Shown: positions 1 through 21,950 of the stretch, piece by piece | Position numbering within the stretch: the stretch's first letter is position 1 | Layout: every line of letters begins with the position of its first letter | From: Microbacterium murale | Lineage (GTDB): Bacteria > Actinomycetota > Actinomycetes > Actinomycetales > Microbacteriaceae | Direction: 5' to 3' | NCBI RefSeq assembly: GCF_014635185.1 | Contig: NZ_BMCM01000001.1 | Location: 558,001-622,000, forward strand | Length of the DNA stretch: 64,000 nucleotides | The notes under the pieces: generated by a model | Told to the model about the DNA's origin: nothing | What the model saw: the letters and a program-made list of their open reading frames with translations, nothing else | Database searches by the model: none | Made by a program: the position numbers and the translations under genes

Positions 1-624
1 GAGATCGGCGGCGATTACTCCAACGACGCCTATTTTCACGCGCAGTGGCGCCGGTCGAACCCGCTCGAGGACAAGACCCCCCACGTCATCCTCGAGGGCA
101 TCGAGGGTCAGGGACAGTACGTCGGCACCTACATCGCCTGGGGCGTGAACTCCAACGGCTGGTGGGGCGAGGGTGAGATCAAGTTCTACCTCGACGACGA
201 CACCGACTATCCGACGATCGCCGGCACGGGCACCGAGGACTACTTCGGCGGTGCGTGGAACTTCGATATACCAGGCAAGGGCTACACCGAGTTCTCCACC
301 CCCTACCTCGGCATGCCTCAGGTGATCAAACCCGACGGCCTGTACGTGAGCCAGCAGCGCTTCGGCATGTACCGCTGGCACCTGCTCGATCCGATCCACT
401 TCACCACCGGCATCCCCAAGGTCGACATCCAGGCTCTCGGATGGCGCAGCGGATGGCGTTACCTGCCACTGCGTGACGACATCGCCTCCACTGCCGTGTT
501 CTACCTCGACCGGCCTACCGCTCGCCGCCCGAGGACGCCCAGCGCCGACGACCTGGAGGTTCACTTGGCGACGGGTCCGGTCCCTGACATCGGCGCGACG
601 CCTCCCCGCGCACCGCGGGACTGA
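1..624 (+). CDS. GH172 (DUF2961) glycoside hydrolase, 5' truncated
   Basis: The reading frame is open from base 1, so only the C-terminal 207 residues are present. The stretch GEGEIKFYLDDD followed by GTGTEDYFGGAWNF is the hallmark of the DUF2961 family, now GH172. The Glu in GTEDYF belongs to the conserved acidic active-site set. Family members act on alpha-D-arabinofuranosides and difructose anhydride, so the likely role is release of terminal D-arabinofuranose or fructofuranose. The lipoprotein gene follows after 6 bases, which suggests one transcript. The N-terminus and any signal peptide lie outside the window, so location in the cell cannot be judged. Family assignment is secure; the substrate is inferred from context. 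Confidence 0.9.
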   Translation, partial: EIGGDYSNDAYFHAQWRRSNPLEDKTPHVILEGIEGQGQYVGTYIAWGVNSNGWWGEGEIKFYLDDDTDYPTIAGTGTEDYFGGAWNFDIPGKGYTEFSTPYLGMPQVIKPDGLYVSQQRFGMYRWHLLDPIHFTTGIPKVDIQALGWRSGWRYLPLRDDIASTAVFYLDRPTARRPRTPSADDLEVHLATGPVPDIGATPPRAPRD

Positions 625-630
625 CGGCCG

Positions 631-1752
631 ATGCGCCGGACCGTCGCGATGGTCGCGCTCACTGCGTCGATTATGTTCACCGCCGGTTGCTCGACAGCGG
701 GCGGTTCTGGAACAGGCGGAGACACGGGGCCGTTCTCGGCCGTCATCGAGGATGCACCCACCGCGATCGGGGTCTCCGATGGCGACCTCTGGCCCAGCTG
801 TTGGTCGGACGACGACGCCCTCTACACGGCGAACGGCGACGGCGCGGGGTTCGGAAACGAGTTCAGCGACATCGTAATGAACCGGGTCACCGGCACCCCG
901 GCATCCGACGATCTAGAAGGCGAAGGACTCGCACTCGGCGATGAGCTCGGCCAGGTGTGGTCGGGCGAGGGGTTCACGCGCAAGCCGACCGGCATGCTGT
1001 GCACGGACGGCACGATCTTCCTGGCTGTGCAGGATCTGGCTCGGGATTTCAATGCCGCTCCCGCCGCAACGATCGCGCACAGCGACGATCACGGCCAGAC
1101 CTGGAAGTGGGACACGGCCGCGCCGATGTTCGACGACGGCGTGTTCACGACGATCTGGTTCGCTGATTACGGTCAGGACGCGGCATCCGCCCCCGACCCC
1201 GAGTACGCGTACGCCTACGGACTCGACGGCAACTGGCGCGACTCGTTCTCGGACGTCGTGCCAGACCCCACCGAGCTGTTCCTTGCTCGAGTGCCGGTCG
1301 ACTCGGTGCAGGATGCCGCGGCGTGGCAGTTCTACGCCGGCGAACCGGGCGATGCCGAGGCGACCTGGACCGGCGACATCGCCTCGAAGCGTCCGGTGCT
1401 GATCGACGAGCGACGCCAGCATGATCTGAGCGTCATCTCGCAGGGCGGCGTGACGTATCTGCCGAAGCACGACCGTTATGTCTATACGTCCTGGACGGAG
1501 TTCACATTCGAGTTCTACGAGTCGCCGACTCCATGGGGACCGTGGGAGCCGTTCCTGACGGAAGACTTCGGGGAGTACCCATGGGATGCAGAGCAGATCG
1601 GCGGGTACGGCACGACGATCCCCTCGAAGTTCGTCTCAGAGGACGAGAAGACGATGTGGGTGCAGTCGAACGTGTGCCCATGCGCGCCGGCGGGTACCAC
1701 CTCGTACTGGTTCGGGCTGCGCGAGATGACGCTGGAAGATTCCGCCAAGTGA
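631..1752 (+). CDS. Secreted lipoprotein, distant DUF4185/beta-propeller-like
   Basis: The 373-residue protein begins with a lipoprotein signal peptide (MRRTVAMVALTASIMFTAGC, lipobox ending at Cys20), so it is probably anchored on the outer face of the membrane. The rest reads like a DUF4185/sialidase-type propeller: DGDLWPSCWSDDDALYTANGDG near the start, HSDDHGQTWKW in the middle, and SPTPWGPWEPF late, a segment also seen in the two DUF4185 proteins at 12838 and 14907. It lacks their GTDLG and FGDTFG motifs, so its catalytic competence is doubtful. It lies between GH172 and an SDR gene, probably in one operon. It may be a divergent hydrolase or a glycan-binding protein. Confidence 0.6.
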   Translation: MRRTVAMVALTASIMFTAGCSTAGGSGTGGDTGPFSAVIEDAPTAIGVSDGDLWPSCWSDDDALYTANGDGAGFGNEFSDIVMNRVTGTPASDDLEGEGLALGDELGQVWSGEGFTRKPTGMLCTDGTIFLAVQDLARDFNAAPAATIAHSDDHGQTWKWDTAAPMFDDGVFTTIWFADYGQDAASAPDPEYAYAYGLDGNWRDSFSDVVPDPTELFLARVPVDSVQDAAAWQFYAGEPGDAEATWTGDIASKRPVLIDERRQHDLSVISQGGVTYLPKHDRYVYTSWTEFTFEFYESPTPWGPWEPFLTEDFGEYPWDAEQIGGYGTTIPSKFVSEDEKTMWVQSNVCPCAPAGTTSYWFGLREMTLEDSAK

Positions 1753-1767
1753 GACGAGGATGACGAC

Positions 1768-2559
1768 ATGACCGACGCAACCTATCCAGATCTTGACTGC
1801 AAGCTCGCCGTCGTCACCGGCGGCGGCCGCGGCATCGGGCTCGCGACCGTCCGGCGGCTGCTCGATCAGGGCGCGCGGGTCATCGTCGTCGACCTGAACA
1901 TGACGGTCGGCGATGTCGGTCAGGCGGATGCGGATGGCTGGCAATCGGTGAGCGGTGAGGTCGAGCTCGACTTCGTGCGCGTCGACGTGACGGATCCGGA
2001 TGCTGTCGCCGAGTTCGCCCGCATCGTCGCAGAGCGCCACGGCGCTCCGGACGTCGTGCTGAACGCCGCCGGTATCGTTCGCTCGGCGAGCGCGGAGGAG
2101 ATGAGCGCCGCAGACTGGCGCCAGGTCGTGGACATCAATCTGTCCGGCGTCTTCTACGTCTCGCAGGCACTCGGGCGTCTCATGCTCGACGCCGGACGCG
2201 GTTCGATCGTCAACATCGCGTCGATGAGCGGCGCCATCAGCAATTACCCGCAGAAGCAATCCAGCTACAACGCCTCCAAGGCCGGCGTCGCCCATCTCTC
2301 TCGCACGCTCGCGGGTGAGTGGGCCAGTCGCGGCGTACGCGTGAACTCGGTCTCGCCCGGTTACATCGCGACAGATCTGACTGCGGCCCTCCTGGAGCGG
2401 GAGCCGGAGTTGGGCGTCACGTGGCGCGAGCGCACGCCGATCGGCCGCCTGGGTACGCCGGACGAGGTGGCATCCGTCATCCTCTTCCTCGCGTCGGACG
2501 CCTCGAGCTTCGTCGTCGGCACCGACCTCGTCGCGGACGGCGGCTACACGGTCTGGTGA
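1768..2559 (+). CDS. SDR family NAD(P)-dependent oxidoreductase
   Basis: A 263-residue classical short-chain dehydrogenase. The cofactor motif TGGGRGIG is at residues 17-24, the NAAG motif near 99-102, and the catalytic triad reads Ser154, Tyr167 and Lys171 (YNASK). An Asp after the second beta strand (VVDLN) favours NAD over NADP. The length is typical. The gene lies 15 bases after the lipoprotein gene, so it probably belongs to the same transcript. In a pentose-glycan locus it could oxidise the released sugar at C1 or interconvert a sugar alcohol, but many SDR substrates are possible and the sequence alone does not decide. Confidence 0.88.
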   Translation: MTDATYPDLDCKLAVVTGGGRGIGLATVRRLLDQGARVIVVDLNMTVGDVGQADADGWQSVSGEVELDFVRVDVTDPDAVAEFARIVAERHGAPDVVLNAAGIVRSASAEEMSAADWRQVVDINLSGVFYVSQALGRLMLDAGRGSIVNIASMSGAISNYPQKQSSYNASKAGVAHLSRTLAGEWASRGVRVNSVSPGYIATDLTAALLEREPELGVTWRERTPIGRLGTPDEVASVILFLASDASSFVVGTDLVADGGYTVW

Positions 2560-2580
2560 GATTCGGTCGGTGACCGAATC
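2560..2580. terminator. Hairpin between convergent genes
   Basis: Arms GATTCGGTC and GACCGAATC form a perfect 9-bp stem with a 3-base GGT loop, placed one base after the SDR stop codon and before the convergent ABC gene. There is no T-tract on either side, so it is a probable but not classical terminator for both directions. Confidence 0.6.
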
Positions 2581-2602
2581 GAGAACGGGTATGGCGCCGC
2601 TA

Positions 2603-4402
2603 TCAGTGGTCGCGCATGGCGCCGTCATCACTCCACGCGTTCCAGAGGTCTGCGTAGCCTCCGGCGGCTGACACGAGTTCGTCGTGCGTGCCGAGTTCCA
2701 CCAGGCGCCCTGCGTCGACGACGGCGATGCGATCCGCGTCGTGCGCAGTGGACAGCCGATGCGCGATGGCGATGACAGTGCGACCGGCCAGCGCGGCACC
2801 GAGCGCCGACTCCAGTTCGCGGGCGGCTCCCGGATCCATCGACGATGTCGCCTCGTCCAGCACGATCGTGCGCGGGTCGGCGAGTACGACTCGCGCAAGG
2901 GCGAGCTGCTGCTCCTGTGCGCCGCTGAGCACATGACCGCCTCTGCCGACCATGGTGTGCCATCCTTCCTCCAGCGCGGTGATCCACCGCTGTGCTCCGA
3001 CCGTCGTCAGCGCCGCTGACAACTGCATGTCATTCGCATCTGGGCGCGCGAGAAGAACGTTGTCGCGAATGCTCGTCGCGAAGATGTGGCTCTCCTGCGT
3101 CACGAGCAGTACGGCACGGCGCCGATGCGCGACGTCGAGCTCGGCGAGGTCGACTCCTCCGACACAGACGCGGCCGGCAGCCGGCGAGTCCAGCCCCGCG
3201 AGCAGGCGCGCCAGAGTCGACTTTCCCGCTCCGGATGGTCCGACAACAGCCAGACGCTCGCCCGGAACGATGTGCAGCGACACCCCGTGCAACACCTCCC
3301 GGCCCGCGCGATAGGCGAAGCGCACATCATGCAGCTCGACATCCCCCGAGGCAGGACCAACGGCAGGGTCAACGGCAGTAGCCGCGGCGGGGTGCGCGAT
3401 GGGGACTGGGTCATGCTCCTGCGGCGTACGGCTGATGCCGAGAACACGGGCGAATGATACGAAGCCGCGCTGCAGCTCATCCGTGCACTCGATGAGCGAC
3501 TCCATCGGAGCGACCAGCGCGGATGCGTACAAGGTGACAGCGACCACGGCGCCGATCGAGACCCGCCCATCGATCGCGAGCCAGCCGCCCCACGCAAGTG
3601 AGGCGAACACCGGAATCGCGAACGAGAGGTTCGACCACGGCAGCATCATCTGGCGCAGACGGATACGCCCGACCGCCGCAGACCAGTGCGCGCCGATCGT
3701 CTGATCTATCGATCGGTTGCGCGCATCCTGAAGGCTCAGCGCCTCGACGGTGCGAGAGCCGGACGATGTCTCGTGCACCGACGCGAACATCGCGCCGTAG
3801 CTGCCACCCAGCCGGTGGTAAACCGCGGGGGCCCGGCGCACGTACCATCGCATCACCACCACCAGCAGCGGCAGCGCGAGCAGGTACACCGGCGCGATCA
3901 GAGGCGCGGTCAAGGCAGCGGCGACGACGGTGAGCACGACGGTCACCACGGCGATGAGCGTCTGAGGTATCGCATCACGCACCGTGCCGCCGAGCGAGCG
4001 GACATCCTGCGTGGTCCGCGTGACGAGCTCACCTGTACCACCGCGTTCGATCAGGCCGATCGGCAGCCGCAGCGCGTTCCTCATGAACTCGTCGCGTACG
4101 CCGCGGAATACGTCCTCGCCGAGCACGAGTGCAGTCCGCGTCGCCAGTAGCAGCAGTGCCGCCTGCGTTACGACACTGACGATCATCCCTCCGCAGAACA
4201 ACGCGATGACGCCACCATCAGCTCCCGCATCCAACCGATCGATGAGTGCCCCGAACAGCTTCGGCGGTGCGAGAGCGGCCACAGCCGCCGCCCCGTAAAG
4301 CACCGCGATCAGGACGAACCGGCCGCGCCGATCACGCCAGAAATTCGACAGCGCAGCCCACACGTCGCGACTGCTCGCGATCGGGAGTGTCGGATCACTC
4401 AT
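2603..4402 (-). CDS. ABC exporter half-transporter, catalytically competent subunit
   Basis: The 599-residue protein has an N-terminal six-helix transmembrane domain (about residues 25-320) followed by an ATPase domain. Walker A is GPSGAGKST and Walker B is TIVLDEATSSMD with the catalytic Glu present. The signature motif is altered to LSGAQ. It is co-transcribed with the gene at 4399, whose start lies upstream and whose end overlaps this start in an ATGA junction. Together they form a heterodimeric exporter in which this subunit supplies the working Walker motifs. The substrate (lipid, peptide or drug) is unknown. The adjacent glycan genes may be coincidental neighbours. Confidence 0.9.
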   Translation of the reverse strand: MSDPTLPIASSRDVWAALSNFWRDRRGRFVLIAVLYGAAAVAALAPPKLFGALIDRLDAGADGGVIALFCGGMIVSVVTQAALLLLATRTALVLGEDVFRGVRDEFMRNALRLPIGLIERGGTGELVTRTTQDVRSLGGTVRDAIPQTLIAVVTVVLTVVAAALTAPLIAPVYLLALPLLVVVMRWYVRRAPAVYHRLGGSYGAMFASVHETSSGSRTVEALSLQDARNRSIDQTIGAHWSAAVGRIRLRQMMLPWSNLSFAIPVFASLAWGGWLAIDGRVSIGAVVAVTLYASALVAPMESLIECTDELQRGFVSFARVLGISRTPQEHDPVPIAHPAAATAVDPAVGPASGDVELHDVRFAYRAGREVLHGVSLHIVPGERLAVVGPSGAGKSTLARLLAGLDSPAAGRVCVGGVDLAELDVAHRRRAVLLVTQESHIFATSIRDNVLLARPDANDMQLSAALTTVGAQRWITALEEGWHTMVGRGGHVLSGAQEQQLALARVVLADPRTIVLDEATSSMDPGAARELESALGAALAGRTVIAIAHRLSTAHDADRIAVVDAGRLVELGTHDELVSAAGGYADLWNAWSDDGAMRDH

Positions 4403-6177
4403 CGTGTCGCCTCCTTCTCGTCAGCGGCAGGTTCCGGTTGTGCTCGCAGCACAGCGGTGACGTAGGCGCCGTCTCTTCTCAGCAGTTCGTCATGAGTGCC
4501 GTCGGCGCGCACCTCGCCGTCTATGACGAGTGCGACTCGATCAGCGACGCTCAACACGAGCGGGCTCGAGGTGACGATGATCGTCGTGCGCCCTCGGCGA
4601 TGTGAGCGGATGCCGTCGGCCATTCGCTCCTCGGTGGCGGCGTCCACGGACGAAGTGGGATCGTGCAACACGAGAACCTCGGGCTCGGAGAGCAGGGCTC
4701 GCGCTGCTCCGAGCCGCTGGCGCTGGCCGCCGGAGAACTCGATGCCTCCCTCGCCGACGAGCACTCCCAGACCACCGTCCACCGACTCGATGACGTCGAG
4801 CGCATCGACGCTTCTCACCGCTCGCAGCAGTGCATCGTCGTCGTGCTGAGCCCACGGGTCGAGCACGCTGCGCAGCGTTCCACTGAAGAGGAACGGTACG
4901 GGGTCGGAGACGACGACAGCGCTGCGGACCTGCTCGATCGGCAGTCGGCAGATGCTGTCGCCATGCAACCGTACGGCAGGCGCCACGGCATCCGGCTCGT
5001 CAGCGTCCTTTCCTTCGACGTCCATTCGTCCGAGCCGATCCACGAATTCCCTCGCCTCGGAAGAGTTCGGAATCACCACCGCGAGCAACTCGCCATCCCG
5101 CACGGTCACACCGGTCCGCTCGTCTACGAGCGCCGGCATCTCCGCTGCGGCATCCGACGCTCGGCTCTCCCCGTCCTGGGCCCACAGCGGGTCGACCTCC
5201 AACACGTCGACGACCTTGCGTGCACCGATGAAGCCGGAGACCACGACTCGCAACACCTGGTTGAACAGCGCCACCGGCATCATCATGAAGCCGGCGTAGC
5301 CGTAGAAGGAGACGAGCTCGCCGACTTGCAGGTCGCCCTGAGCGACCAGCCCGGCGCCGATCCACGTCAGCGTGGCGACCAGGATGCCGGCGATGAGCAC
5401 GTTCAGGCCTTCGGCAGCCGCCAGCGGCCAGGACGCCTTCTTCGCCGCTTTACCCAACTGCGACGAATGCGTGCGAAAGCGCGACAGGAACTGCTCCTCG
5501 CCGCCAATACCGCGCAGCACGCGCATTCCTTTGACGCTGTCGGCGGCGACGGCGTTCATCTGCTCCGAGGCTTTGCGGACGATCCATTGCCGCTTGTGCA
5601 GAGACTTCACGAGCGCGAACTGCACGAGTGCGAACGCCGGTACGCCGACGACGACGAGCAGGCCGAGCAGCAGCGAATCACGCAACAGCAGCGCGGACAC
5701 CGTGATGAACGCGACCAGCGAAGAGATCAGGGAACCGACGTTGATCGGAATGAAGCTGATCGCCCAGGAATCCGACGACGCCACCGTCACCATCGCTCCC
5801 GCCGGCAGCTTCTGGTCGGCTGCCACCGTCACCCTGGTCGACGCACGGGCGATCACCTGACTCACCCGGCTCGAGGCGCGCTCGAAGTTCACCGAACCGG
5901 CGCGGTCACGAAGACCCTGAATCAGCGAATGCTGCAACTGAAGCCAGATCACGACCGCGAGCCAGCGCAAGAATGCGGCAAAGTCGCCGGCGACGAGGCC
6001 TTCGTCGATCGCGCGTCCGATGGCCCAGGGCGTGAGGGCGAGTCCCAGCAGCCAGATGATGTCGCACACAGTTCCCTGCACAACGGTGGTCCACTGCATC
6101 CGGGTGATCCAGAGTAGGAAGCCGCCGGGCGTCACCCCAGCCGGCGGCGCGGTGTACGGTTCGGGGACGGCGCGCAT
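4399..6177 (-). CDS. ABC exporter half-transporter, degenerate ATP-site subunit
   Basis: The 592-residue partner of the downstream ABC gene has a six-helix membrane domain (about residues 25-320) and a C-terminal ATPase domain. The region that should hold Walker A reads AVVIPNSSEAREFVDRLG, with no GxxGxGK[ST]. Walker B ends in LHDPTSSVD, with Pro where the catalytic Glu should be. The signature FSGGQRQR is intact, so it can complete the partner's ATP site. Start at 6177 is supported by the ribosome site AAGGAG just upstream. This is a known type of asymmetric heterodimeric exporter, but complete loss of Walker A is extreme. Confidence 0.88.
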   Translation of the reverse strand: MRAVPEPYTAPPAGVTPGGFLLWITRMQWTTVVQGTVCDIIWLLGLALTPWAIGRAIDEGLVAGDFAAFLRWLAVVIWLQLQHSLIQGLRDRAGSVNFERASSRVSQVIARASTRVTVAADQKLPAGAMVTVASSDSWAISFIPINVGSLISSLVAFITVSALLLRDSLLLGLLVVVGVPAFALVQFALVKSLHKRQWIVRKASEQMNAVAADSVKGMRVLRGIGGEEQFLSRFRTHSSQLGKAAKKASWPLAAAEGLNVLIAGILVATLTWIGAGLVAQGDLQVGELVSFYGYAGFMMMPVALFNQVLRVVVSGFIGARKVVDVLEVDPLWAQDGESRASDAAAEMPALVDERTGVTVRDGELLAVVIPNSSEAREFVDRLGRMDVEGKDADEPDAVAPAVRLHGDSICRLPIEQVRSAVVVSDPVPFLFSGTLRSVLDPWAQHDDDALLRAVRSVDALDVIESVDGGLGVLVGEGGIEFSGGQRQRLGAARALLSEPEVLVLHDPTSSVDAATEERMADGIRSHRRGRTTIIVTSSPLVLSVADRVALVIDGEVRADGTHDELLRRDGAYVTAVLRAQPEPAADEKEATR

Positions 6178-6321
6178 GGGCGCTCCTTAAATTCGCTGAG
6201 TGAACACGGGAGTCGCCGTCGACCCGATTCGGCGTCGACGGCATGGTCCTTCACCTCGATCGGGTGCGGACTCGACGTTCTGTGTCACTTGCGCATGTCG
6301 AGCACACTATCGGATTTTCTA

Positions 6322-6335
6322 TGAAACCGATATCA
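6322..6335. promoter_or_regulatory. LacI-type operator, copy 1
   Basis: The 14-mer TGAAACCGATATCA matches the palindrome TGAAATCGATTTCA in 12 of 14 positions. It lies in the 215-base gap between the divergent ABC exporter and lactonase genes, 58 bases before the lactonase start. The same motif occurs before three other units of this locus. Confidence 0.6.
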
Positions 6336-6392
6336 GCATGGGTAAAGCAATCGCTATCACCGTCGTTTCCTCGCTCACCGTACGATCGAGGC

Positions 6393-7421
6393 ATGACCGA
6401 CTCTGCGCTCGTCCTGGTCGCCAACGCCGGCGAAGGATCCATCAGCACCTTCCGCCTCAAGAACGGGAGGATCGAGCTCCTCGCCGTCACTGACGGACTC
6501 CCCGGATGCTCGACCTTCGCTGTCGACTCCGACCGCGATCTCGTCTATGCGGGTGTGAAAGGCGAGCCCGCCGGCATCCTGACCCTGTCGCTGGACCGCC
6601 AAAGCGGACGGCTCACTCCGCAGTCCCGGCTCGATCTCCCAGGCGGGGGCATGAATTATCTCGCCATCGTGCGGGGTGGCACAGCGCTTCTTGGTGCGTC
6701 ATACGGCGGCGGCTACGGCATCAGCTGCCCGGTTTCAGGCGACGTCGTCGGCGAGCCGGTTTCGAAGATCGAGTTCCCGAACCTGCACTCGGTGTTGCCG
6801 AGCGTCGATGGCCGATTCGCCTACTTCGTGTCGCTCGGCGCGGATATCGTGGCGCAGTACGCACTCGACGGAGACTTCCGACTCGTACCGCTGACCCCGC
6901 AGACGGTGGAAGCACCGGCCGGCAGCGGCCCGCGCCACCTCGTGCTGAACGACGCACAGGACGCGGCGTACGTGCTCACCGAGTTCTCCGGTGAGGTGCT
7001 CCACTACTCTCGCGACGCCCGGAGCGGGCGGCTCGAGCTCCGCGACGCGACCACCGCGTACGACACGACCAAGGACCTCGGCCACAGCGTTTTCGGCGCT
7101 GACCCGCTTGCGAACCACTACATCTGGGGCGCCGACCTGCACTTCGGCGCGGGGGGCAACTGGCTGTGGAGCTCGGAACGCACCGAGAGCACACTGGGTG
7201 CGGTGGCAGTGGCCGATGACGGATCGGTGTCGGCACCGACGCGCTTCACCGTCACCGAGACACAGCCACGCGGGTTCGCCGTCAGCCCCGACGGCGCCTA
7301 TCTCATCGCCGCCGGAGAACGGTCGACGACCGTCTCCCTCTACGCCGTCCGCGATGATGAGCTCGAACTGCTTCAGCGGGCCGAAACCGGCACCGGCGCG
7401 AACTGGGTGCGCTTCGTCTGA
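6393..7421 (+). CDS. Lactonase family (7-bladed propeller, Pgl-like) protein
   Basis: A 342-residue protein of the 6-phosphogluconolactonase/lactonase family (PF10282). Typical blade segments are visible: LVANAGEGSISTF at the start, CSTFAVDSDRDLVYAGV, GSGPRHLVLNDA in the middle, and ETQPRGFAVSPDGAYL near the end. No signal peptide is seen, so it is cytoplasmic. The longer reading frame starts at 6243, but ATG at 6393 gives the family-like N-terminus MTDSALVLVANAG. A TACGAT element at 6381-6386 would place transcription at or next to this ATG, so the mRNA may be leaderless. It could hydrolyse an aldonolactone formed from the sugar released by the neighbouring glycosidases. Confidence 0.85.
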   Translation: MTDSALVLVANAGEGSISTFRLKNGRIELLAVTDGLPGCSTFAVDSDRDLVYAGVKGEPAGILTLSLDRQSGRLTPQSRLDLPGGGMNYLAIVRGGTALLGASYGGGYGISCPVSGDVVGEPVSKIEFPNLHSVLPSVDGRFAYFVSLGADIVAQYALDGDFRLVPLTPQTVEAPAGSGPRHLVLNDAQDAAYVLTEFSGEVLHYSRDARSGRLELRDATTAYDTTKDLGHSVFGADPLANHYIWGADLHFGAGGNWLWSSERTESTLGAVAVADDGSVSAPTRFTVTETQPRGFAVSPDGAYLIAAGERSTTVSLYAVRDDELELLQRAETGTGANWVRFV

Positions 7422-9379: not shown

Positions 9380-9390
9380 GGTGCCTCTGC

Positions 9391-10284
9391 CTACTTCAGC
9401 CCCGCCATCTTGATGTTGCCGATGATCTGGCGCTGGAAGATAAGGAACAGGATGACCACGGGCGCGGCCGCGAGCACGGAACCTGCCATCAGCAGTCCCA
9501 GTTCCGTCGAGCGCTCGGAGCGGAACGTCGCGAGGTACTGCTGCACGACGAAACGCTCAGGGCTGGTGATCGTCAGGATCGGCCAGACGTAGGAGTTCCA
9601 GTACGCGAGGAACGCAGTGATGCCCATCACGACGAACGGCGGCTTCGACAGCGGCAGGAAGATCCGCACGAAGATCGCGAATCGTCCGCATCCGTCGAGC
9701 ATCGCCGCCTCTTCGAGGCTCGCCGGGATGTTGAGGTAGAACTGCCGGATGAAGAACACCGTCGCCGCGCTCGCGGCTCCTGGCAGAACGAGCACCGCGA
9801 GGGTGTCGAGCATGCTGAGCTTGGTGACGACGATGAAGCTGGTGAGGAGGATGGTCATGGCCGGAATGAACATCGTGGTGATGACGATCGTCCAGATCGT
9901 CTTCTTAAACCGGAACTCCAACCGTGCGAAGGCGTACGCCGCGAGCGAGTTGATCGTGAGGCTGAGGAGCGTGAACAGGACGGCGCCCATGAACGTCCAC
10001 CCCATGGTGAGCGTGAACGTGGGATCCGCCAGGATCTGCACGTAGTTCTCCCACTTCCACACCTCCGGGAAGAACTGGAACGGCGTCTGAATGACCTCGG
10101 TCTTCGACTTGAAGCCGGCGATCACCATCCATGCGAGCGGGAAGAGCGCGGCCACCAGGAACAGGAGTCCGGCGATCCCCTTGCCGATGAGCACCAGCCA
10201 CGAGCCGGGTGTGCGCGGCAGCGGCTTGCGCTGGGGCTCTTTGCCTGCGAGGACGATCCGCGTCGTGTCCTGAACGATGGCCAT
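9391..10284 (-). CDS. Carbohydrate ABC transporter permease (MalG-type)
   Basis: A 297-residue inner-membrane permease with about six transmembrane segments and the cytoplasmic coupling motif EEAAMLDGCGRFAIFVRIFLPL typical of CUT1 sugar importers. An N-terminal cytoplasmic tail with a positive charge cluster precedes helix 1. The start follows the upstream permease stop directly (TGAGATG), indicating translational coupling. No ATPase gene is encoded in this operon. CUT1 systems of actinobacteria often share one MsiK/MalK-type ATPase encoded elsewhere, which is the likely energy source here. Confidence 0.93.
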   Translation of the reverse strand: MAIVQDTTRIVLAGKEPQRKPLPRTPGSWLVLIGKGIAGLLFLVAALFPLAWMVIAGFKSKTEVIQTPFQFFPEVWKWENYVQILADPTFTLTMGWTFMGAVLFTLLSLTINSLAAYAFARLEFRFKKTIWTIVITTMFIPAMTILLTSFIVVTKLSMLDTLAVLVLPGAASAATVFFIRQFYLNIPASLEEAAMLDGCGRFAIFVRIFLPLSKPPFVVMGITAFLAYWNSYVWPILTITSPERFVVQQYLATFRSERSTELGLLMAGSVLAAAPVVILFLIFQRQIIGNIKMAGLK

Positions 10285-10285
10285 C

Positions 10286-11212
10286 TCAGTCCACCAGCCT
10301 CTCCGAGTTGACGAATCTGAAGACCACGGCCGAGACCGTGCCCAGCACCACGAACATCAGCAGGGCGGCGGCGATCGAGTAGCCGACGTTGATGTCGTTG
10401 CGGAAGTGATTGAAGATGAACAGGTTCGGCAGCATGGTCGAATCCAGAGGCCCGCCGTTCGTCATGACGAGCGGAAGTTCGAACTGCTGAATCGCGGCGA
10501 CGAAGCCGGTGATCAGAAGGTAGAGGAGGATGTTCTTCATCTGCGGGAGTGTGATGTAGGCGGTCTTCTGCCACCAGTTCGCGCCCTCCATCGCGGCGGC
10601 CTCGTAGAACTCCTGCGGGATGTCGACCATCGCCGCCACCATGATCAGAGACGTGAGCCCCATGCCCAGCCAGATCGCAGGGACGGCGATCGCGAGCAGT
10701 GCCCATGCGGGATCGCCGATCCAGGCGATCGGGTCGATGCCGAAGAACGCGAGGAACCAGTTGAGCAGGCCGCCGGAGTAGTCGTAGATGAGTACGAAGA
10801 TGATCGAGGTGATCACCGCGGAGATGATCGTCGGGATGTAGATGCTGACCTTCAGGATGCCGGCGAACCTCTTGCCGACGCTGACGACCAGACTGGCGAA
10901 AAGGAATGCCAGGACCAGCATGGGCGGCACGGTCAACGCCACGAAGCCGAAGCCGCGGGCGACCGACGCCCAGAACAGCGGGTCTGACATCACATCCGTG
11001 AAGTTCTTCCAGCCGACGAACTCAGGGTCCTTGTAGAAGCTCCAGTTCTGGAACGAGAGGTAGCCCGCGTAGATCGCCGGCCAGATCACGAAGATCCCGA
11101 GCAGCACCACCACCGGCACCAGGAACCAGTAGGCGATCTTGTCGTCCCGGAATCGATGCCGGTTCTGCCTCTGCCGGATCATCCGGCGTTCTTGCACAGC
11201 TTGACTGGCCAT
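10286..11212 (-). CDS. Carbohydrate ABC transporter permease (MalF-type)
   Basis: The 308-residue permease has six or so transmembrane helices (for example ...YWFLVPVVVLLGIFVIWPAIYAGYL near the N-terminus) and the coupling loop YEAAAMEGANWWQKTAYITLP. ATG at 11212 was chosen because GAGGTGG precedes it by a few bases; a GTG nine codons upstream (11239) is open but has no clear ribosome site. It forms the membrane channel with the MalG-type partner. A strong hairpin separates it from the upstream binding-protein gene, so it is probably made in smaller amounts than that protein. Confidence 0.9.
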   Translation of the reverse strand: MASQAVQERRMIRQRQNRHRFRDDKIAYWFLVPVVVLLGIFVIWPAIYAGYLSFQNWSFYKDPEFVGWKNFTDVMSDPLFWASVARGFGFVALTVPPMLVLAFLFASLVVSVGKRFAGILKVSIYIPTIISAVITSIIFVLIYDYSGGLLNWFLAFFGIDPIAWIGDPAWALLAIAVPAIWLGMGLTSLIMVAAMVDIPQEFYEAAAMEGANWWQKTAYITLPQMKNILLYLLITGFVAAIQQFELPLVMTNGGPLDSTMLPNLFIFNHFRNDINVGYSIAAALLMFVVLGTVSAVVFRFVNSERLVD

Positions 11213-11243
11213 GTCCACCTCATCGTTCGGGTGCGTCACGGTT

Positions 11244-11270
11244 CGAGGGCCGGGATGATCCCGGCCCTCG
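11244..11270 (-). terminator. Post-binding-protein hairpin (attenuator)
   Basis: Arms CGAGGGCCGGGA and TCCCGGCCCTCG form a perfect 12-bp stem with a TGA loop, 12 bases after the binding-protein stop and 31 bases before the permease start. There is no T-run, so partial termination or mRNA 3'-end protection is more likely than full termination. Confidence 0.75.
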
Positions 11271-11282
11271 ACGTGAGCGCTG

Positions 11283-12653
11283 TCAGTTCTTCGGAGCCTT
11301 ATCGGCCAGTCCGTCGCGGTCGATCACGGTCTGGATCGCCTTGTTCGCGGTGTTGATCGCGTCATCGGCAGATGCTGCGCCCTTCATCACGGTCTCGAGC
11401 GCGGTTCCCACTGCCAGGGACACGTCCCAGGGATAGGTCGGCTCGGGGATCGCGGTGGGTGCGATCTCGTTGACGATGATGTCCGACCAGGGTGCGTCGG
11501 CGGCTTCGTCGCTCTCGGCGACGGCATCCTGCACGGACTGCCGGACCGGCACCTTCGTGAACTGCGTGTCGACGAAGAACGGCACGACGTTCTCCGGGTC
11601 GCCGGCGATCGCCCAGCTGAGGAACTCACCGGCGGCCTCGGCGTTCTTGGTCTTCGCGTCGACGACCCACTTGAAGTTGCCGAGCGTGGTGGCCGTGCGG
11701 TCGTCGGAACCCGACGCACTCGGGAACGCGCCGATGCCAATGTTGGTGAGCATGTCGGGGTAGTCCGACCCCATCTCCGACATCGTCCACGAGCCGGAAA
11801 CCTTGAAGGCGACCTTCTGCTCGCCGAAGTCCTTGCCCTCGACGTAGGCAGCGAGCGGCTGCTTCGGCATGTACCCGTTGTCCCAAAGCGACTTGTACTG
11901 CTCCATAAGATCGCGGTAGCCGTCATCGTCGATGTTCGGCGCGGTCCAATCGTCGGTAAGAGCGGTGTGCCCGGCGAAGTTGTACTGCTGTCCGACGGAC
12001 GACCAGGCGAAGGTGGCTGCGTCCTGCGCGGGAGAGATGCAGTATTGGCCCGAGGCAAGCGTCGGCTTGATCTCAGCGCAGGCGGCCAGGAGTTCGTCCC
12101 ACGTTTCAGGACCGTTCTCCGTGTCGACGCCCGCCGCGTCGAGTAGCTCCTTGTTCCAGTAGAGCACGGTCTGCGGCTCAAGCAGCAAGGGGTAGGCGTA
12201 GTAGGTGCCGTCGATCTCGGAAACCGACTTCGCGGAGTCAATGATCTCGGCCAACGCGTCCTCAGGGACGATGGAGTCGAGGTCGTGCAGTTGCCCGGCG
12301 TTCACCGCATCCTGGATGCTGCCCGAGTGGGTGTAGACATCAGGCGCCTTGCCCGCGGCCTGGGCGGCCTTCATCTTCTGATCCCACGTGTCGCCGGGAA
12401 CCTCGGTGTCGACGACCTTGATCTCGTCCTGCGACTCGTTGAATTTCTTGACGATGCCCTCGTACCACTCGTTCTCGACCGGAGTGAACGTCCGGTGCCA
12501 GAACTGAATGGTCGTGACTCCGTCTTCTCCTCCGCCGTCTCCGGCGGACTCGCCGGGGGTGCTGGAGCCGCAGCCGGCCAGCAGACCGACTGCGGTGACC
12601 GCGCTGAGGGCCGACAGAGTGATCCGCCTTCTGCGGGATGTGTTGATTGCCAT
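11283..12653 (-). CDS. Sugar ABC transporter substrate-binding lipoprotein
   Basis: The 456-residue family-1 solute-binding protein starts MAINTSRRRRITLSALSA and has a lipobox LLAGC. The following FWHRTFTPVENEWYEGIV is typical of CUT1 binding proteins. The frame is open further upstream, but ATG 12653 is preceded by an excellent AGGAGG site. It is membrane-anchored outside the cell and delivers an oligosaccharide to the two permeases encoded next. A LacI-type palindrome lies about 105 bases upstream. In this locus the ligand is probably a pentofuranosyl oligosaccharide released by the secreted hydrolases; the ligand itself cannot be read from the sequence. Confidence 0.93.
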   Translation of the reverse strand: MAINTSRRRRITLSALSAVTAVGLLAGCGSSTPGESAGDGGGEDGVTTIQFWHRTFTPVENEWYEGIVKKFNESQDEIKVVDTEVPGDTWDQKMKAAQAAGKAPDVYTHSGSIQDAVNAGQLHDLDSIVPEDALAEIIDSAKSVSEIDGTYYAYPLLLEPQTVLYWNKELLDAAGVDTENGPETWDELLAACAEIKPTLASGQYCISPAQDAATFAWSSVGQQYNFAGHTALTDDWTAPNIDDDGYRDLMEQYKSLWDNGYMPKQPLAAYVEGKDFGEQKVAFKVSGSWTMSEMGSDYPDMLTNIGIGAFPSASGSDDRTATTLGNFKWVVDAKTKNAEAAGEFLSWAIAGDPENVVPFFVDTQFTKVPVRQSVQDAVAESDEAADAPWSDIIVNEIAPTAIPEPTYPWDVSLAVGTALETVMKGAASADDAINTANKAIQTVIDRDGLADKAPKN

Positions 12654-12758
12654 GGGTTCCTCCTCAGGAACGTGACTCGACATCGAGTCATGCTGTTCGG
12701 GCTGGTGCCAGGGAGCCGGTTGATCGGGTCGCCGTCGACCGGTAGACGACACGCTAGA

Positions 12759-12772
12759 CGAAATCGATTTCA
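12759..12772. promoter_or_regulatory. LacI-type operator, copy 2
   Basis: CGAAATCGATTTCA contains the perfect 12-base palindrome GAAATCGATTTC. It lies between the upstream DUF4185 gene and the sugar-importer operon, about 105 bases before the binding-protein start, and is identical base for base to copy 4 at 16086. Confidence 0.75.
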
Positions 12773-12837
12773 AGCACAAGCGGGAAAGAGGCGAATGCGA
12801 GGAGAATTCCCGCATCCGCCTCTCCCACCTCACCGAA

Positions 12838-14742
12838 TCAGTGTCCGGTCTGCCTGCGGCGAACGGCGGTCATCACGCCTCCCGCCACGAGCAGCAGAGT
12901 GCCGATGACCAGTGGCACGATCAGCGCCACGCCATCGGAACCCGTCGCCGCCAGCGGCCCGCCGTCGCCGCTTCCGCCCGATGCAGGAAGCGCACCAGGC
13001 GCCGGGTCGGTCGGTCCGCCCCCGCCAGGTGCCGTCGGCGGAACCGTGACTGGCGGGTCGGTCGGATCCACCGGGTCGGTCGGATCCACCGGGTCGGTCG
13101 GATCCACGGGATCGGTCGGATCCACGGGATCGGTCGGATCCACGGGATCGGTCGGATCCACCTTGACCACGGCGAGATCATCGATCTGCACCCACCGATC
13201 GCCGTTCAGCGCCGTCCCGACGAAGGCCTCGACGCTGGTGGCCGATCCGGAGTTGAACGCGACCTCGAACCGCTGATAGGGCGCGACCGCGGTGAAGCCG
13301 GTCGATCCGAGCGCTGCCGCCCCTGGACCGACCTCGCGCACACCGAAGGTCCCGTCGGCCGGCACACCTCCCGTGATCACGAAGCCCGAGAAGACGTAAT
13401 CCGTGTTCGGCTCGACGGCGACTGCCTGATGCACGTCCACGGTGCCGGCGTTGCTGCGCATCCACGCTTGGCGACTGCCCGCATACGACCAGGCGTGATT
13501 CGTGTCGATCCCGCAGTTGCCGTTGCACGCCCAAGGTGCGGCGATCGTCGAGCTATGTTCGAAACTGGGGTTCTGGATGAGATTCGGGTTCGTGATCGAG
13601 CCGTCCTCGTCGAGGTGGACGCGCACGAGGAAGACGTTGTACGGATCCCACTGCGACATCGCGACGTAGAGATCAGGACCCGACGACCAGGGGTGGATGT
13701 ATCCGCCGTAGAGGCCAGGATAATCGAGCGAGTTCGCGATGCCTTCACCCTGCGTCCAGGGGCCTTCCGGGCTGTCTGCGGTTCGCAGCAGCATCGTGCC
13801 GTCGGCCTTGCCGTCCAGAGTCACCATCAGCCATTTCCCAGTGTACTCGTTGAACTGCACGGACAGCTCGGAGTTCATCGGAGGCACGATCGCGACGGCG
13901 TTCGTGCCGTCGCCCGCACTCCATGCCGCACCGTCCCAGTACCGCCAGGCCGCCTTGTCGAGCATGTCGGTCTCCGCGACGCGCGCGACATGGACGGCGC
14001 CGAGACGGCCGTTCGGCGTGCCGAACATGTAGACGTACCCGTCGCGCTTCTCGAAGGCGACCATCTGGAACGGATGCTGCGGACCATCCGGATCCGCCCA
14101 CTGCGACGCCGTCGCCGTGTTCTGCCAGGTCGGGCCGTCGGTGGAGTTCCACGTCTCGCCGTTGTCGTCCGAATACGCGATCCGGCTGAAGTTCGTCCAC
14201 CACTGGCCGGGGGGACCCCACTCGCGCACCGACATGAATGCCATGTACTGCCGATCGCCGACCGCGATGCCGGCCGTCGGAATCGTGGTCATCTCGTCGC
14301 CCGAGATCTTCTTCGACGGGATCAGCTCGCCCGCATGCCCCGGCACATCCTCAACCGCGGAGTCGAAGCTCATGCCGTCGCTGAGGTCGGTGTCCGTGGA
14401 GCGCAGGAGCACATTCGAGCGCCAGTCGCCTCCGCCGCCGCCCGGCCCTCCCCAGTCCCCGAACGTGTCGCCGAAGGCGGTGAGCACCTCGTCCTCGCCG
14501 TTGTCCCACATAATCCCGAGGTCGGTACCGGTGACCCGCCATCGGTCGGCCACGTCGGTCGTCGCGCTGCTTCCGGTCATCTGCGCGATCATCACCGCCG
14601 GTGACGACGGGAGAGGTTCAGCAGCAGCGGCACCGGTACCGGCGGCGCCGAGGCCGGCGATCGCCAGCAGTGCGCCGACGGCGCACGCGATCCTCGGCCG
14701 CGCTCGGCGTCGAGCGAGGCGGGGAGATGAAGGTGGGGTCAC
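12838..14742 (-). CDS. Secreted, wall-sorted DUF4185/GH183-type protein with CBM
   Basis: The 634-residue protein starts at GTG 14742, preceded by AAAGGA. It has, in order: a signal peptide (to about residue 40, ending GAAAAEP); a DUF4185 domain with GTDLG and FGDTFGDWGG; a carbohydrate-binding-like domain starting near NLIQNPSFEH; six VDPTDP repeats; a Gly/Pro-rich linker; and a C-terminal sorting signal LAATG followed by a hydrophobic helix and RRRQ. LAxTG is the class-E sortase type, so it is probably covalently anchored to the wall. DUF4185 is the GH183 family of endo-D-arabinofuranases. A LacI-type operator lies upstream at 14864. Confidence 0.85.
   Translation of the reverse strand: MTPPSSPRLARRRARPRIACAVGALLAIAGLGAAGTGAAAAEPLPSSPAVMIAQMTGSSATTDVADRWRVTGTDLGIMWDNGEDEVLTAFGDTFGDWGGPGGGGGDWRSNVLLRSTDTDLSDGMSFDSAVEDVPGHAGELIPSKKISGDEMTTIPTAGIAVGDRQYMAFMSVREWGPPGQWWTNFSRIAYSDDNGETWNSTDGPTWQNTATASQWADPDGPQHPFQMVAFEKRDGYVYMFGTPNGRLGAVHVARVAETDMLDKAAWRYWDGAAWSAGDGTNAVAIVPPMNSELSVQFNEYTGKWLMVTLDGKADGTMLLRTADSPEGPWTQGEGIANSLDYPGLYGGYIHPWSSGPDLYVAMSQWDPYNVFLVRVHLDEDGSITNPNLIQNPSFEHSSTIAAPWACNGNCGIDTNHAWSYAGSRQAWMRSNAGTVDVHQAVAVEPNTDYVFSGFVITGGVPADGTFGVREVGPGAAALGSTGFTAVAPYQRFEVAFNSGSATSVEAFVGTALNGDRWVQIDDLAVVKVDPTDPVDPTDPVDPTDPVDPTDPVDPTDPVDPTDPPVTVPPTAPGGGGPTDPAPGALPASGGSGDGGPLAATGSDGVALIVPLVIGTLLLVAGGVMTAVRRRQTGH
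13054..13161 (-). repeat. Six 18-bp tandem repeats encoding VDPTDP
   Basis: The unit reads approximately GGATCCACCGGGTCGGTC on the + strand, with a second version carrying ACGGGATCG. The six copies encode a Pro/Asp-rich spacer between the carbohydrate-binding domain and the wall-sorting signal. Such arrays can change copy number by slippage. Confidence 0.9.
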
Positions 14743-14863
14743 GACGTTCCTTTCGACACGCTCCCGCCGCGCGACGGGCACCACGAAACAACGGTGCGAG
14801 CATCGCGGCGAGGAGCTGATTGGCATCGGCATCCGGTCGGAGGACAGCATCGTCACCCGCGAA

Positions 14864-14877
14864 TGAAACCGATTTCA
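14864..14877. promoter_or_regulatory. LacI-type operator, copy 3
   Basis: TGAAACCGATTTCA differs from the perfect palindrome TGAAATCGATTTCA at one position. It sits in the 164-base gap between the lipoprotein gene at 14907 and the downstream DUF4185 gene, about 120 bases before that gene's start. Confidence 0.7.
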
Positions 14878-14906
14878 ACACAGAATAGGGAGAGTCGCGC
14901 GACCCG

Positions 14907-16058
14907 TCAAGAGGCGCGTTCGAGATCGGCCGAGAACCAGAACACGTTGTACGGCCCCCACAGCGACAGCGTGAAGTAGATCGTCTGACCATCGCCCGAC
15001 ACGTATCGCGGGTTGAGGTACGGCGAGTAGAGACCGGGATGGTCGGCGCCCGAAACCAGTTCGTGGGGATCGCCCCATGGCCCCCATGGCGTGGCCCCTT
15101 CTCGGATGTACGCGGTGCCCGCGTCCGAGTACGTCATGATCCAGCGGTCGAGATAGGTCGACCACATCACCGACAGCTCGCCGATGGTTCCCTCGACGAT
15201 CGTCTCGGCATCCGACATCTCGGAACTCCAATGCGGCTCCGCGCCGTCCGCCCCGACGAAGTACTCGTAGGAGGTCTGATCCTCGACCGCTTCCTCCGTC
15301 GCGGGCACACGCATGAGCTGAACACCGCCGAAGCGTCCTGATGGGATCGCCCAGAAGTAGACGTAGTCGACGCCGTCCTCGGTGACCGGCACTGTCGCGA
15401 ACTGGACGAAGTTCGAATCCCCCGGCCACTGCACGCCCTCGACCGGCATCCAGGAAGCGCCGTCATCACGCGAGACGATCAGCGCGGAGTGGTTCGCATC
15501 CCAAGCGCCCGGCTCGCCCCAGTGGCGCACAGACATGTACGAGACGTAGATCGTCTCACCCACCGCGAAGCCGTAGGTCGGAATCTTCGTGACCTCGCCT
15601 TCCGCGTCGTTGGCGTCGTGATCGCCCTCGGTGAGCGCGGCGGCCAGCCCGATGTCATCCGTGACCCAGTCGTCGAAGGTGATGCCGTCGCTCGGGTCGG
15701 CATCCGTCGTCCAGGCCGCGACATTGGAGCGCCAGAACCCTCCCTGCCCTCCGATGGACTCGGGATCGCGTTCGCCGAACGTGTCGCCGAAGAAGAAGTA
15801 CGTCCTGTCGTCGACGTTCACCATGGAGCCCAGATCCGTGCCGGCGACAGAGACCGACGAGGTGTCGTTGATCGCGTCCGGCCCCGTGAGCTGAGCGATC
15901 TCCGTGAGATTCGAGACGCCGTCGAGAACGAACGGCTTGTCCGGATTCGGATCGACGATCACGCTCGCTCCACTTGAACATGCCGCGAGCCCGATGGCCA
16001 GCAGAGCGGATGCTGCGACCGCAGCGGTACGGCGAACGGACGTGCGGTCATGTCGCAT
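14907..16058 (-). CDS. DUF4185/GH183-type secreted lipoprotein
   Basis: A 383-residue protein with a lipoprotein signal peptide (lipobox LAAC) and a single DUF4185 domain. It shows GTDLGSMVNVDD and FFFGDTFGERD, the same motifs as the larger wall-sorted paralogue, and ends LSLWGPYNVFWF, matching that protein's MSQWDPYNVFLV. It is probably an endo-acting enzyme on D-arabinofuranosyl polymer, held at the membrane face. The ribosome site GAGGAGG precedes ATG 16058. The gene is divergent from the unknown gene at 16119, and a LacI-type palindrome lies between the two, so both may respond to the same inducer. Confidence 0.85.
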   Translation of the reverse strand: MRHDRTSVRRTAAVAASALLAIGLAACSSGASVIVDPNPDKPFVLDGVSNLTEIAQLTGPDAINDTSSVSVAGTDLGSMVNVDDRTYFFFGDTFGERDPESIGGQGGFWRSNVAAWTTDADPSDGITFDDWVTDDIGLAAALTEGDHDANDAEGEVTKIPTYGFAVGETIYVSYMSVRHWGEPGAWDANHSALIVSRDDGASWMPVEGVQWPGDSNFVQFATVPVTEDGVDYVYFWAIPSGRFGGVQLMRVPATEEAVEDQTSYEYFVGADGAEPHWSSEMSDAETIVEGTIGELSVMWSTYLDRWIMTYSDAGTAYIREGATPWGPWGDPHELVSGADHPGLYSPYLNPRYVSGDGQTIYFTLSLWGPYNVFWFSADLERAS

Positions 16059-16085
16059 GATCCTCCTCGATCAGCGCCACTCTAG

Positions 16086-16099
16086 CGAAATCGATTTCA
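16086..16099. promoter_or_regulatory. LacI-type operator, copy 4
   Basis: CGAAATCGATTTCA is identical to copy 2 and contains the perfect 12-base palindrome. It lies 28 bases from the DUF4185 lipoprotein start and 20 bases from the divergent gene at 16119, so one bound repressor could block both promoters. Confidence 0.75.
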
Positions 16100-16118
16100 G
16101 GTCGCTACCGTGTTCAGG

Positions 16119-17030
16119 ATGCACTCATCATGGACACGACCAGAGCCGACCGAGAACACCGAGCCGCGCTGGGGGCACGCCGACGGCATGCAAGTCGGCA
16201 TTCCGCCGATCCCCGGGCCACGCGGGCTGCTGCGGATCTTCACGCCATACCTCGACCACCCCCGCGAGCGTCTGGTGAACTTCATCGCGATCGAGCCCGT
16301 CGTCGAGGGGCAGACCGAGCGCGGGTACTCCGAACTCGAGCCGAGCACGCTCGATCCTGGCCTGCGCGGCAAGCGCCTCTGGTCCATGGATCGCCCAGGC
16401 GACGGCCCCGACGGTGTCGCGCAGGGCGTGACCGAAACCATCGACGGCGTCGAGTGCCTCACGGTCTGGATCGGCGTCGAGCGCTTCGACAGCGGGGCGG
16501 ATGTGCGGGTGCGCGTGCGTTTCCGAGCCGATCGCCCGCACGAGGTGGAGGTCGCCGGCTTCGCCGAGGATGCGTCGGCGCCGCTGAGCCACCTGATCCT
16601 CACAGCCACCATGGGCAACTGGGCACGACTGCGCACACTGGAGCTCTCCGACCGCACAGTGACTCCGGCTGAACTCTGGCCCGGGTTCTCCGGCACGGCA
16701 TTCGCCGAGCACGCCCGATTCGCGTTGTCCGAGTTGCGACGCGACGGCGAGGCCGCTGTCGTGAGCGCCGTCGGCGATGAGACCGAACCGTGGTCCGCCG
16801 TCTACTCCGACGACACGGCGAAGCACTGGCACTTCTTCGGCCGCCTGGCCAGACAGACGTGGACCGTCGATGACCCGCATCCAGAGCTCGAGGCACTCGT
16901 GAACGCGCGGTGGTCGTACTGGGCGAGCGCGTCTCCCATTCCTGGCGGACCCGCGTTCGAGAACTTCGAGGTCGTGGAGCCGTTCAGGCAGGGCGCGGCG
17001 TTCCGGTTCTCGGTCGAGCCGCTGGATTGA
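16119..17030 (+). CDS. Protein of unknown function in glycan locus
   Basis: I do not recognise a family. The 303-residue product has no signal peptide or membrane helix and is rich in charged residues and Trp. Notable segments are GIPPIPGPRGLLRIFTPYLD near the start, LILTATMGNWARLRTLEL in the middle and KHWHFFGRLARQTW late. Its even beta-strand-like pattern hints at a beta-sandwich, but this is only an impression. ATG 16119 has no ribosome site; a TACCGT element at 16106-16111 would put transcription at the ATG, so the mRNA may be leaderless. GTG 16110 is an alternative start. The shared operator region suggests a role in the same glycan response. Confidence 0.65.
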   Translation: MHSSWTRPEPTENTEPRWGHADGMQVGIPPIPGPRGLLRIFTPYLDHPRERLVNFIAIEPVVEGQTERGYSELEPSTLDPGLRGKRLWSMDRPGDGPDGVAQGVTETIDGVECLTVWIGVERFDSGADVRVRVRFRADRPHEVEVAGFAEDASAPLSHLILTATMGNWARLRTLELSDRTVTPAELWPGFSGTAFAEHARFALSELRRDGEAAVVSAVGDETEPWSAVYSDDTAKHWHFFGRLARQTWTVDDPHPELEALVNARWSYWASASPIPGGPAFENFEVVEPFRQGAAFRFSVEPLD

Positions 17031-20091: not shown

Positions 20092-20108
20092 GTGCTTCCT
20101 CCGACGGA

Positions 20109-20141
20109 TGCGGAGGTCGGAGAGTGACCCCGACCTCCGCA
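20109..20141 (-). terminator. Post-binding-protein hairpin (attenuator)
   Basis: Arms TGCGGAGGTCGG and CCGACCTCCGCA form a perfect 12-bp stem with a 9-base loop, between the tctC stop (20148) and the tctB start (20091). It has the same placement as the hairpins at 11244, 30340 and 45043. Confidence 0.75.
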
Positions 20142-20147
20142 AGGTGA

Positions 20148-21116: not shown

Positions 21117-21173
21117 CTTTGCTCCTCTTTGAGTGCAGGTGGGGACCGTACCAACGGACCCGAGCGTAGCATT

Positions 21174-21193
21174 GTTGACTGTTAACAGTCAAC
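21174..21193. promoter_or_regulatory. GntR-type operator before tctC
   Basis: GTTGACTGTTAACAGTCAAC is a perfect 20-base palindrome located 58-77 bases before tctC. The core ACTGTTAACAGT recurs with two changes before the GntR gene itself (21951). Confidence 0.8.
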
Positions 21194-21269
21194 GTCGCAT
21201 GGGTCGTCGATGTCCGAGGTCGTCGGGGCAGGGCCGCGGACGCGGGACTGCCAGGTCAGGGCAAGCGGA

Positions 21270-21935: not shown

Positions 21936-21950
21936 GATGACCTCCTGTTT

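Follow-up and report, generated by a model that had tools for sequence, protein, structure and literature searches.

D-arabinan is a main polymer of mycobacterial walls and is part of lipoarabinomannan. Here we analyse a gene cluster of Microbacterium murale that very probably encodes a system for scavenging this polymer, together with a LacI-type regulator, its putative operator palindromes, a protein of 306 residues (orf306) and a GH127-family protein. The window, i.e., the whole stretch of DNA analysed, comprises 64,000 nucleotides (G000:C1:558001-622000) of a 3.9 Mb genome. The core of such a D-arabinan locus is already known, having been published in 2023 from a sister species, M. arabinogalactanolyticum. 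The sections of that paper drawn on here (PMC10509167) describe four DUF4185/GH183 genes together with genes for GH172, GH116, importer, isomerase and kinase. Those genes that were measured were induced both by D-arabinose and by an extract of mycobacterial walls, four enzymes were assayed, and the enzymes that cut D-arabinan are presented as tools. The D-arabinan polysaccharide utilization locus PUL42 of Dysgonomonas gadei, according to the part of PMC10115798 used here, also combines GH172 and GH183 enzymes and includes a FucI-like isomerase, as does the M. murale locus. Its host belongs to the Bacteroidota, and the two loci are likened by description, not by sequence.

Comparison with the M. 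arabinogalactanolyticum locus

We take genome G398 as M. arabinogalactanolyticum: its GH172 is 100% identical over 204 typed ExoMA1 residues, and its genes contain the EndoMA1 and ExoMA2 strings. The gene caller used for this comparison misses some genes. GH116, GH172, the isomerase, the importer, two DUF4185 genes, orf306 and the overall order of the published locus (MIAR_33170-33320, as far as the PMC10509167 sections detail it) are orthologous to those of M. murale. Identities to G398 are 90% for GH172 (against the ExoMA1 gene), 86% for the isomerase, 80-83% for the permeases, 77% each for GH116 (against ExoMA2) and the binding protein, 75% for orf306, and 74% each for two DUF4185 proteins that we call GH183b and DUF4185c. 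Unlike the published locus, that of M. murale has no close EndoMA2 counterpart, and its EndoMA1-type gene (GH183a) lies between the binding protein and GH183b, whereas in G398 the GH183 gene comes after DUF4185c. The M. murale locus further differs from that of G398 in having GH127, an ABC (ATP-binding cassette) exporter, SDR and lactonase genes, and a second importer accompanied by a fourth DUF4185. What is new here is the likely palindrome/LacI switch and two extra members, undescribed in the open-licence texts searched. These PMC texts contain nothing on GH127 with D-arabinan and nothing with the palindrome letters, and the portion of the PMC10509167 main text drawn on here mentions no regulator, operator, LacI, mutarotase or GH127.

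Gene content and proposed route

The original prediction, made from the letters of the window, had placed in 1..17030 a cluster of GH172, two clear DUF4185/GH183 proteins, a distant DUF4185 relative and GH127. All of these domains were found by Pfam and are co-located. The contents of the span hold; its left limit was merely the window edge, and the cluster runs on for ~12.3 kb. Reading leftwards from GH172, which begins 509 bases left of the window, Pfam gives first a LacI regulator, then a second importer set (binding protein plus two permeases) and a fourth DUF4185, and finally the FGGY kinase, GH116 and FucI-like isomerase genes. The predicted dedicated importer was likewise found (a binding protein and two permeases, 9391-12833), and sequence points to CUT1-type permeases; its gene for the binding protein probably starts at 12653, which gives the lipobox LLAGC. 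Importer, isomerase and kinase are thus all present by family, and their substrates are inferred.

Strands and small gaps suggest three operons: a leftward one that starts with the second binding protein and runs as far as the isomerase, a rightward one of GH172, DUF4185c and SDR (gaps of 6 and 15 bases), and another leftward one of binding protein, permease, permease and GH127 (gaps of 43, 1 and 11 bases between the longest open frames). Promoter- and terminator-like sites showed no excess over shuffled sequence. The same gene order recurs in named and unnamed Microbacterium genomes, and therefore the co-location is not due to chance. An ExoMA1-type GH172 (E 1e-60) occurs in 65 of 296 genus members. 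Twelve named Microbacterium loci, covered to at most 10 kb per side, contain GH116 and GH183 in all cases, importer permeases in 11, orf306 in eight and GH127 in none.

Genome-wide, DUF4185 has four matches at E 0.001, three of them above the cut-off, all inside ~22 kb. The hidden Markov model check that had been proposed for the two main DUF4185 proteins turned out in their favour: GH183a (391 bits) and GH183b (276 bits) exceed the Pfam cut-off, match the solved EndoMA1 structure (8hhv; E 4.8e-134 for GH183a), and retain in the alignment all five EndoMA1 active-site residues (D33, D51, W138, R198 and E243). The C-terminus of GH183a has an LAATG motif, a membrane helix and a basic tail, by which the enzyme is likely wall-anchored; the NCBIfam LAVTG model scores it at 19.5 bits, under its 27-bit cut-off. 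GH183b is a lipoprotein and, by gene order, the probable orthologue of MIAR_33320. DUF4185c is more divergent. Its structure model has a propeller fold of the EndoMA1 type, and in its alignment to EndoMA1 D51 is aligned, an invariant Asp (D52) lies close to D33, and R198 and E243 are unmatched. Gene order makes it the probable orthologue of MIAR_33220, homologues of which are said, in the sections of PMC10509167 drawn on, to be missing from the D-arabinan loci of other Microbacterium. If this orthology holds, as order, size and identity to the G398 gene suggest, it bears on that remark: DUF4185c is present in M. murale, M. barkeri (L015), Microbacterium sp. Root180 (L030) and genome G390. The fourth DUF4185 reaches 29.6 bits, below the Pfam cut-off, and has no signal peptide. 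Signal peptides were judged by eye throughout, without a predictor.

GH172 retains Asn253 of ExoMA1, and GH116 keeps the catalytic and recognition residues of ExoMA2 (E431, H446, R483 and D557), all counted in the alignments; the GH116 count assumes that the chain number equals the paper number plus 4, an offset that we inferred. The GH172 protein also matched PDB chain 8ah3_A, labelled 'DG02479 GH127', a label that may be a slip.

We propose that the anchored GH183 enzymes, one on the wall and one on the membrane, would cut alpha-D-arabinan outside the cell, and that the ABC importer would bring in arabinan oligosaccharides. In the cytosol, GH172 (alpha) and GH116 (beta) would free D-arabinose, the mutarotase-like orf306 could provide the anomer used by the FucI-like isomerase, and the FGGY kinase would yield D-ribulose 5-phosphate for central metabolism. 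GH127 may be a cytosolic furanosidase that the regulon has recruited as an accessory. The LacI-type repressor would bind GAAATCGATTTC-type palindromes at five places before the main transcription units, exporter and lactonase excepted, and let go when D-arabinose or its product is present. Breakdown at the surface before uptake, as originally predicted, fits the endo step only, because GH172, GH116 and GH127 have no signal peptide; the exo step would be intracellular.

A palindrome and a LacI-type regulator

A scan for inverted repeats in four intergenic stretches found GAAATC/GATTTC in the stretch that separates GH183b from orf306, and a near copy in that of LacI and GH172. The regulator beside GH172 has PF00356 and Peripla_BP domains. 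The exact palindrome GAAATCGATTTC occurs three times in the genome, where base composition predicts 0.03 copies, and all three are in the cluster. With at most one mismatch there are seven sites genome-wide, five of them in the cluster (including GAAACCGATTTC; Table 1) and the other two on contigs C2 and C9. A LacI protein is thus accompanied by a palindrome shared among the main units, in five copies. Six sites with up to two mismatches lie in the window (1.3 expected); the two-mismatch sites at 6323 and 12220 were set aside, both being inside open frames. Neither the exporter pair nor the lactonase has such a palindrome before it.

The exact palindrome is found in 63 of the 64 other genus members with cluster GH172, in 2-5 copies each, and the sole genome without it (G453) is 76% complete. 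Among 64 members without cluster GH172, taken from 231, ten have it. In nine of these ten, orthologues of FucI (85-89%) and LacI (73-82%) adjoin a site; G289 has neither beside its site, and the same is true of one of the two G329 sites. Across 80 loci of named genomes, the motif with one position relaxed accompanies all 28 LacI proteins of at least 48% identity (a cut-off picked after the identity values were known; nine of these loci are from Streptomyces), three of 13 weaker ones and two of 39 loci without LacI. The corresponding counts for the exact 12-mer are 25/28, 1/13 and 0/39. From the co-occurrence of palindrome, LacI and FucI across genus members and the 80 loci, we infer a D-arabinose-responsive LacI repressor that would also serve stand-alone D-arabinose catabolism.

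Nine Microbacterium genomes without cluster GH172 (L154-L156 and L158-L163) combine LacI, FucI and the palindrome in what is apparently a stand-alone D-arabinose locus. Exact palindromes also occur in three stretches without GH183, GH172, GH116, FucI or LacI: G554:C75:15486-15721 (L165), G329:C44:74543 (L157) and G289:C1:829853 (L164). They could mark further regulon members or be due to chance.

GH127 and orf306

GH127 closes the importer operon, with a gap of 11 bases between it and the permease gene. It has the same catalytic and middle domains as the GH127 beta-L-arabinofuranosidase and aceric acid hydrolase, to which it is only weakly similar (57.8 bits to 4qjy; 50 bits to the aceric acid hydrolase model, with a cut-off of 950). 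A Glu and three Cys, which we take to form the GH127 metal site, align; the loop of Glu322, presumably the acid, does not. The original prediction had counted GH127 among the arabinan set, and the gene is indeed there. Core membership was rejected, with relatives (E 1e-60 or better) in two of the 64 other genomes with cluster GH172, neither near GH172, and an accessory role fits instead. One of these is G390, whose cluster otherwise closely resembles that of M. murale (GH172 94%, permeases 96-97%). Its intact, 74% identical GH127 (G390:C1:615934-617892; L150:9934-11892) sits 2.4 Mb away from the cluster when measured along the contig, or 0.8 Mb in the opposite direction if the contig is circular, and carries, 42 bases upstream, one of the four exact palindromes in G390. 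This distant palindrome-bearing copy is the reason for tying GH127 to the regulon. Its five scanned neighbours (glycosyltransferase, GSDH, RibD_C, MFS and FAD oxidoreductase) include no D-arabinan genes. In an Acidobacteria metagenome-assembled genome (L063) a 43% identical relative ends just before GH172, adjoins a GH116-like gene and lies ~7 kb from DUF4185, an arrangement seen in one of the 80 loci. M. murale has a second GH127 (G000:C5:288919-290760), 41% identical, which adjoins sugar-type permeases and has no palindrome.

Like the GalM family, orf306 has a predicted galactose-mutarotase-like fold, a similar size and no signal peptide; unlike that family, it gave no hit by sequence among the solved chains, a profile search at E 5 included. 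We propose, from the structure model, that it may be a D-arabinose mutarotase. Residues H144, E145, H201, H239 and E284 are invariant in the alignment. Among the 296 genus genomes orf306 occurs solely in carriers of cluster GH172 (39/39). At the level of the order (297 genomes) it was found in eight genomes, all with a strong GH183, and GH183 at E 1e-50 is present in 27. A class-level search with the A1 profile returned two of 197 genomes, M. murale itself and G097. In a Cryobacterium metagenome-assembled genome (L022) orf306 lies inside a D-arabinan locus. Six genomes from a different family of the same order (L111-L116) contain relatives of 55-59% identity, with GH183 elsewhere in those genomes. 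The idea that orf306 also clusters with D-arabinan genes beyond Microbacterium was rejected, as the surrounding 20 kb in these six genomes gave no GH183, GH172, GH116 or FucI match.

Alternative explanations and implications

We consider it very probable that the locus is a D-arabinan (arabinogalactan/lipoarabinomannan) scavenging system of Microbacterium, LacI regulon included. This reading is based on the sequence orthology of GH172, GH116, the isomerase, the importer and one GH183 gene with the published locus, and on the conserved active sites. Several observations weigh against it. GH183a shares only 46% identity with EndoMA1, the likely EndoMA2 gene has no close counterpart in the M. murale genome (best 29%), DUF4185c and the left DUF4185 lack an aligned R198/E243 pattern, and the scheme leaves the SDR, lactonase and exporter unexplained. 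The link between LacI and palindrome is an association only, the motif is more than 400 bases from the LacI gene in seven of the 28 loci, and most genomes counted are related, so that the counts are not independent. That the target is a furanoside polymer of another kind, for example plant L-arabinan or a fructan-type glycan, is very unlikely. Solved GH127 relatives are named beta-L-arabinofuranosidases and the GH172 family includes a difructose dianhydride enzyme, but the GH172 here is ExoMA1-like with Asn253, a residue given as a block against fructofuranosides (in the sections of PMC10509167 drawn on), the ExoMA2 site is kept in GH116, and the isomerase, like that of the D-arabinan locus of D. 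gadei (part of PMC10115798), is FucI-like. Still less credible is that the cluster remodels the organism's own wall, as mycobacteria do in encoding GH183 enzymes for their own arabinan (part of PMC10115798). Remodelling was the second option of the original prediction, and it is not favoured because isomerase and kinase, together with the importer, make the locus a catabolic route; GH172 is also confined to 65 genus members. D-arabinan is not known to occur in Microbacterium walls. Scavenging of actinobacterial arabinan, the first option, is upheld by the induction of the orthologous locus by D-arabinose and wall extract (as given in the PMC10509167 sections).

The two additional proteins call for more caution. 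With nearly even probability, orf306 is instead a lyase, hydrolase or sugar-binding protein of the same supersandwich fold; against this, it resembles GalM in standing alone, in its length of ~300 residues and in lacking a signal peptide, it is placed within a sugar-isomerase pathway, and it has many invariant charged residues. GH127 rather probably serves D-arabinan use, with a substrate that we leave unnamed. That it is an unrelated operon passenger is a lesser but real possibility, in keeping with the rarity of relatives among carriers of cluster GH172 (two genomes, in neither of them near it) and their absence from the 12 named loci, with the G390 neighbours, and with the second, palindrome-free GH127. 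Its closing position in the importer operon, the upstream palindrome of the distant G390 gene and the L063 arrangement speak against a passenger.

The regulon singles out GH127 and orf306 as proteins of interest for D-arabinan use, and with a one-motif regulon further D-arabinan genes may be findable by operator instead of family, as the G390 GH127 suggests. A more far-reaching proposition, which we regard as rather unlikely, is that the actinobacterial D-arabinan toolkit is marked by a single LacI regulon, responsive to D-arabinose and readable from GAAATCGATTTC, that orf306 represents a new family and is the first D-arabinose mutarotase in it, and that this GH127 branch removes a D-arabinan end or decoration beyond the reach of GH172 and GH116. 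The 5-methylthio-xylofuranose of lipoarabinomannan is an example of such a decoration.

Other genes in and beside the cluster

Table 1. Features of the M. murale cluster and its right flank, in window coordinates unless marked C1; percentages are identities.
Feature	Position	Strand	Remarks
Exact GAAATCGATTTC	C1:556243		Before second binding protein
One-mismatch palindrome	C1:557408		Between LacI and GH172
GH172 exo-alpha-D-arabinofuranosidase, 3' end	1..624	+	Pfam DUF2961; whole gene C1:557491-558624, 377 aa
DUF4185c, divergent GH183-like lipoprotein	631..1752	+	DUF4185 48.8 bits, cut-off 39.5
SDR dehydrogenase	1768..2559	+	Pfam; 15 bases after DUF4185c
ABC-exporter pair	2603..6177	-	Pfam ABC_membrane/ABC_tran
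7-bladed lactonase-like protein	6243..7421	+	PF10282; 83% in L010, 79% in G390 cluster
GH127-family protein	7373..9379	-	PF07944 75 bits, PF20736 55.8 bits; no signal peptide by eye
Two sugar-importer permeases	9391..11239	-	BPD_transp_1; conserved in relatives
Solute-binding lipoprotein	11283..12833	-	SBP_bac_1/8; G398 counterpart in MIAR_33310 position
Exact GAAATCGATTTC, putative LacI operator	12760..12771	.	106 bases before likely binding-protein start
GH183a, endo-D-arabinanase with EndoMA1-type C-terminal module	12838..14856	-	Start uncertain
One-mismatch palindrome GAAACCGATTTC	14865..14876	.	Upstream of GH183a
GH183b, GH183 lipoprotein	14907..16058	-	Lipobox LAAC
Exact GAAATCGATTTC, putative LacI operator	16087..16098	.	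Between divergent GH183b and orf306 genes
orf306, 306 residues	16110..17030	+	No Pfam match; predicted galactose-mutarotase-like fold
DHDPS-family protein, TctA, TctC, GntR/FCD regulator	17052..22040	-	Pfam; conserved right-hand neighbours

The SDR, the exporter pair and the lactonase-like protein fall inside the originally predicted span. The SDR is probably on the same transcript as DUF4185c, and it also follows GH172 in both M. aerolatum (L010, 69%) and G390 (72%). An oxidative D-arabinose route involving the SDR, the lactonase and the DHDPS-family protein was considered; we do not claim it because no aldonate dehydratase was found among the cluster genes scanned with Pfam, the genome not having been searched for one. 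The exporter pair has no match at the corresponding place in G390 (L151). Relatives were found near the M. azadirachtae cluster (L020, 61%) and in L023 (46 and 39%).

No palindrome lies within the right-hand genes from 17052 to 22040. TctA (88% identical), TctC (76%) and the GntR/FCD regulator (73%) adjoin the cluster in G398 as well, and the DHDPS-family gene is present in G390, with TctA, and in M. aerolatum (L010).

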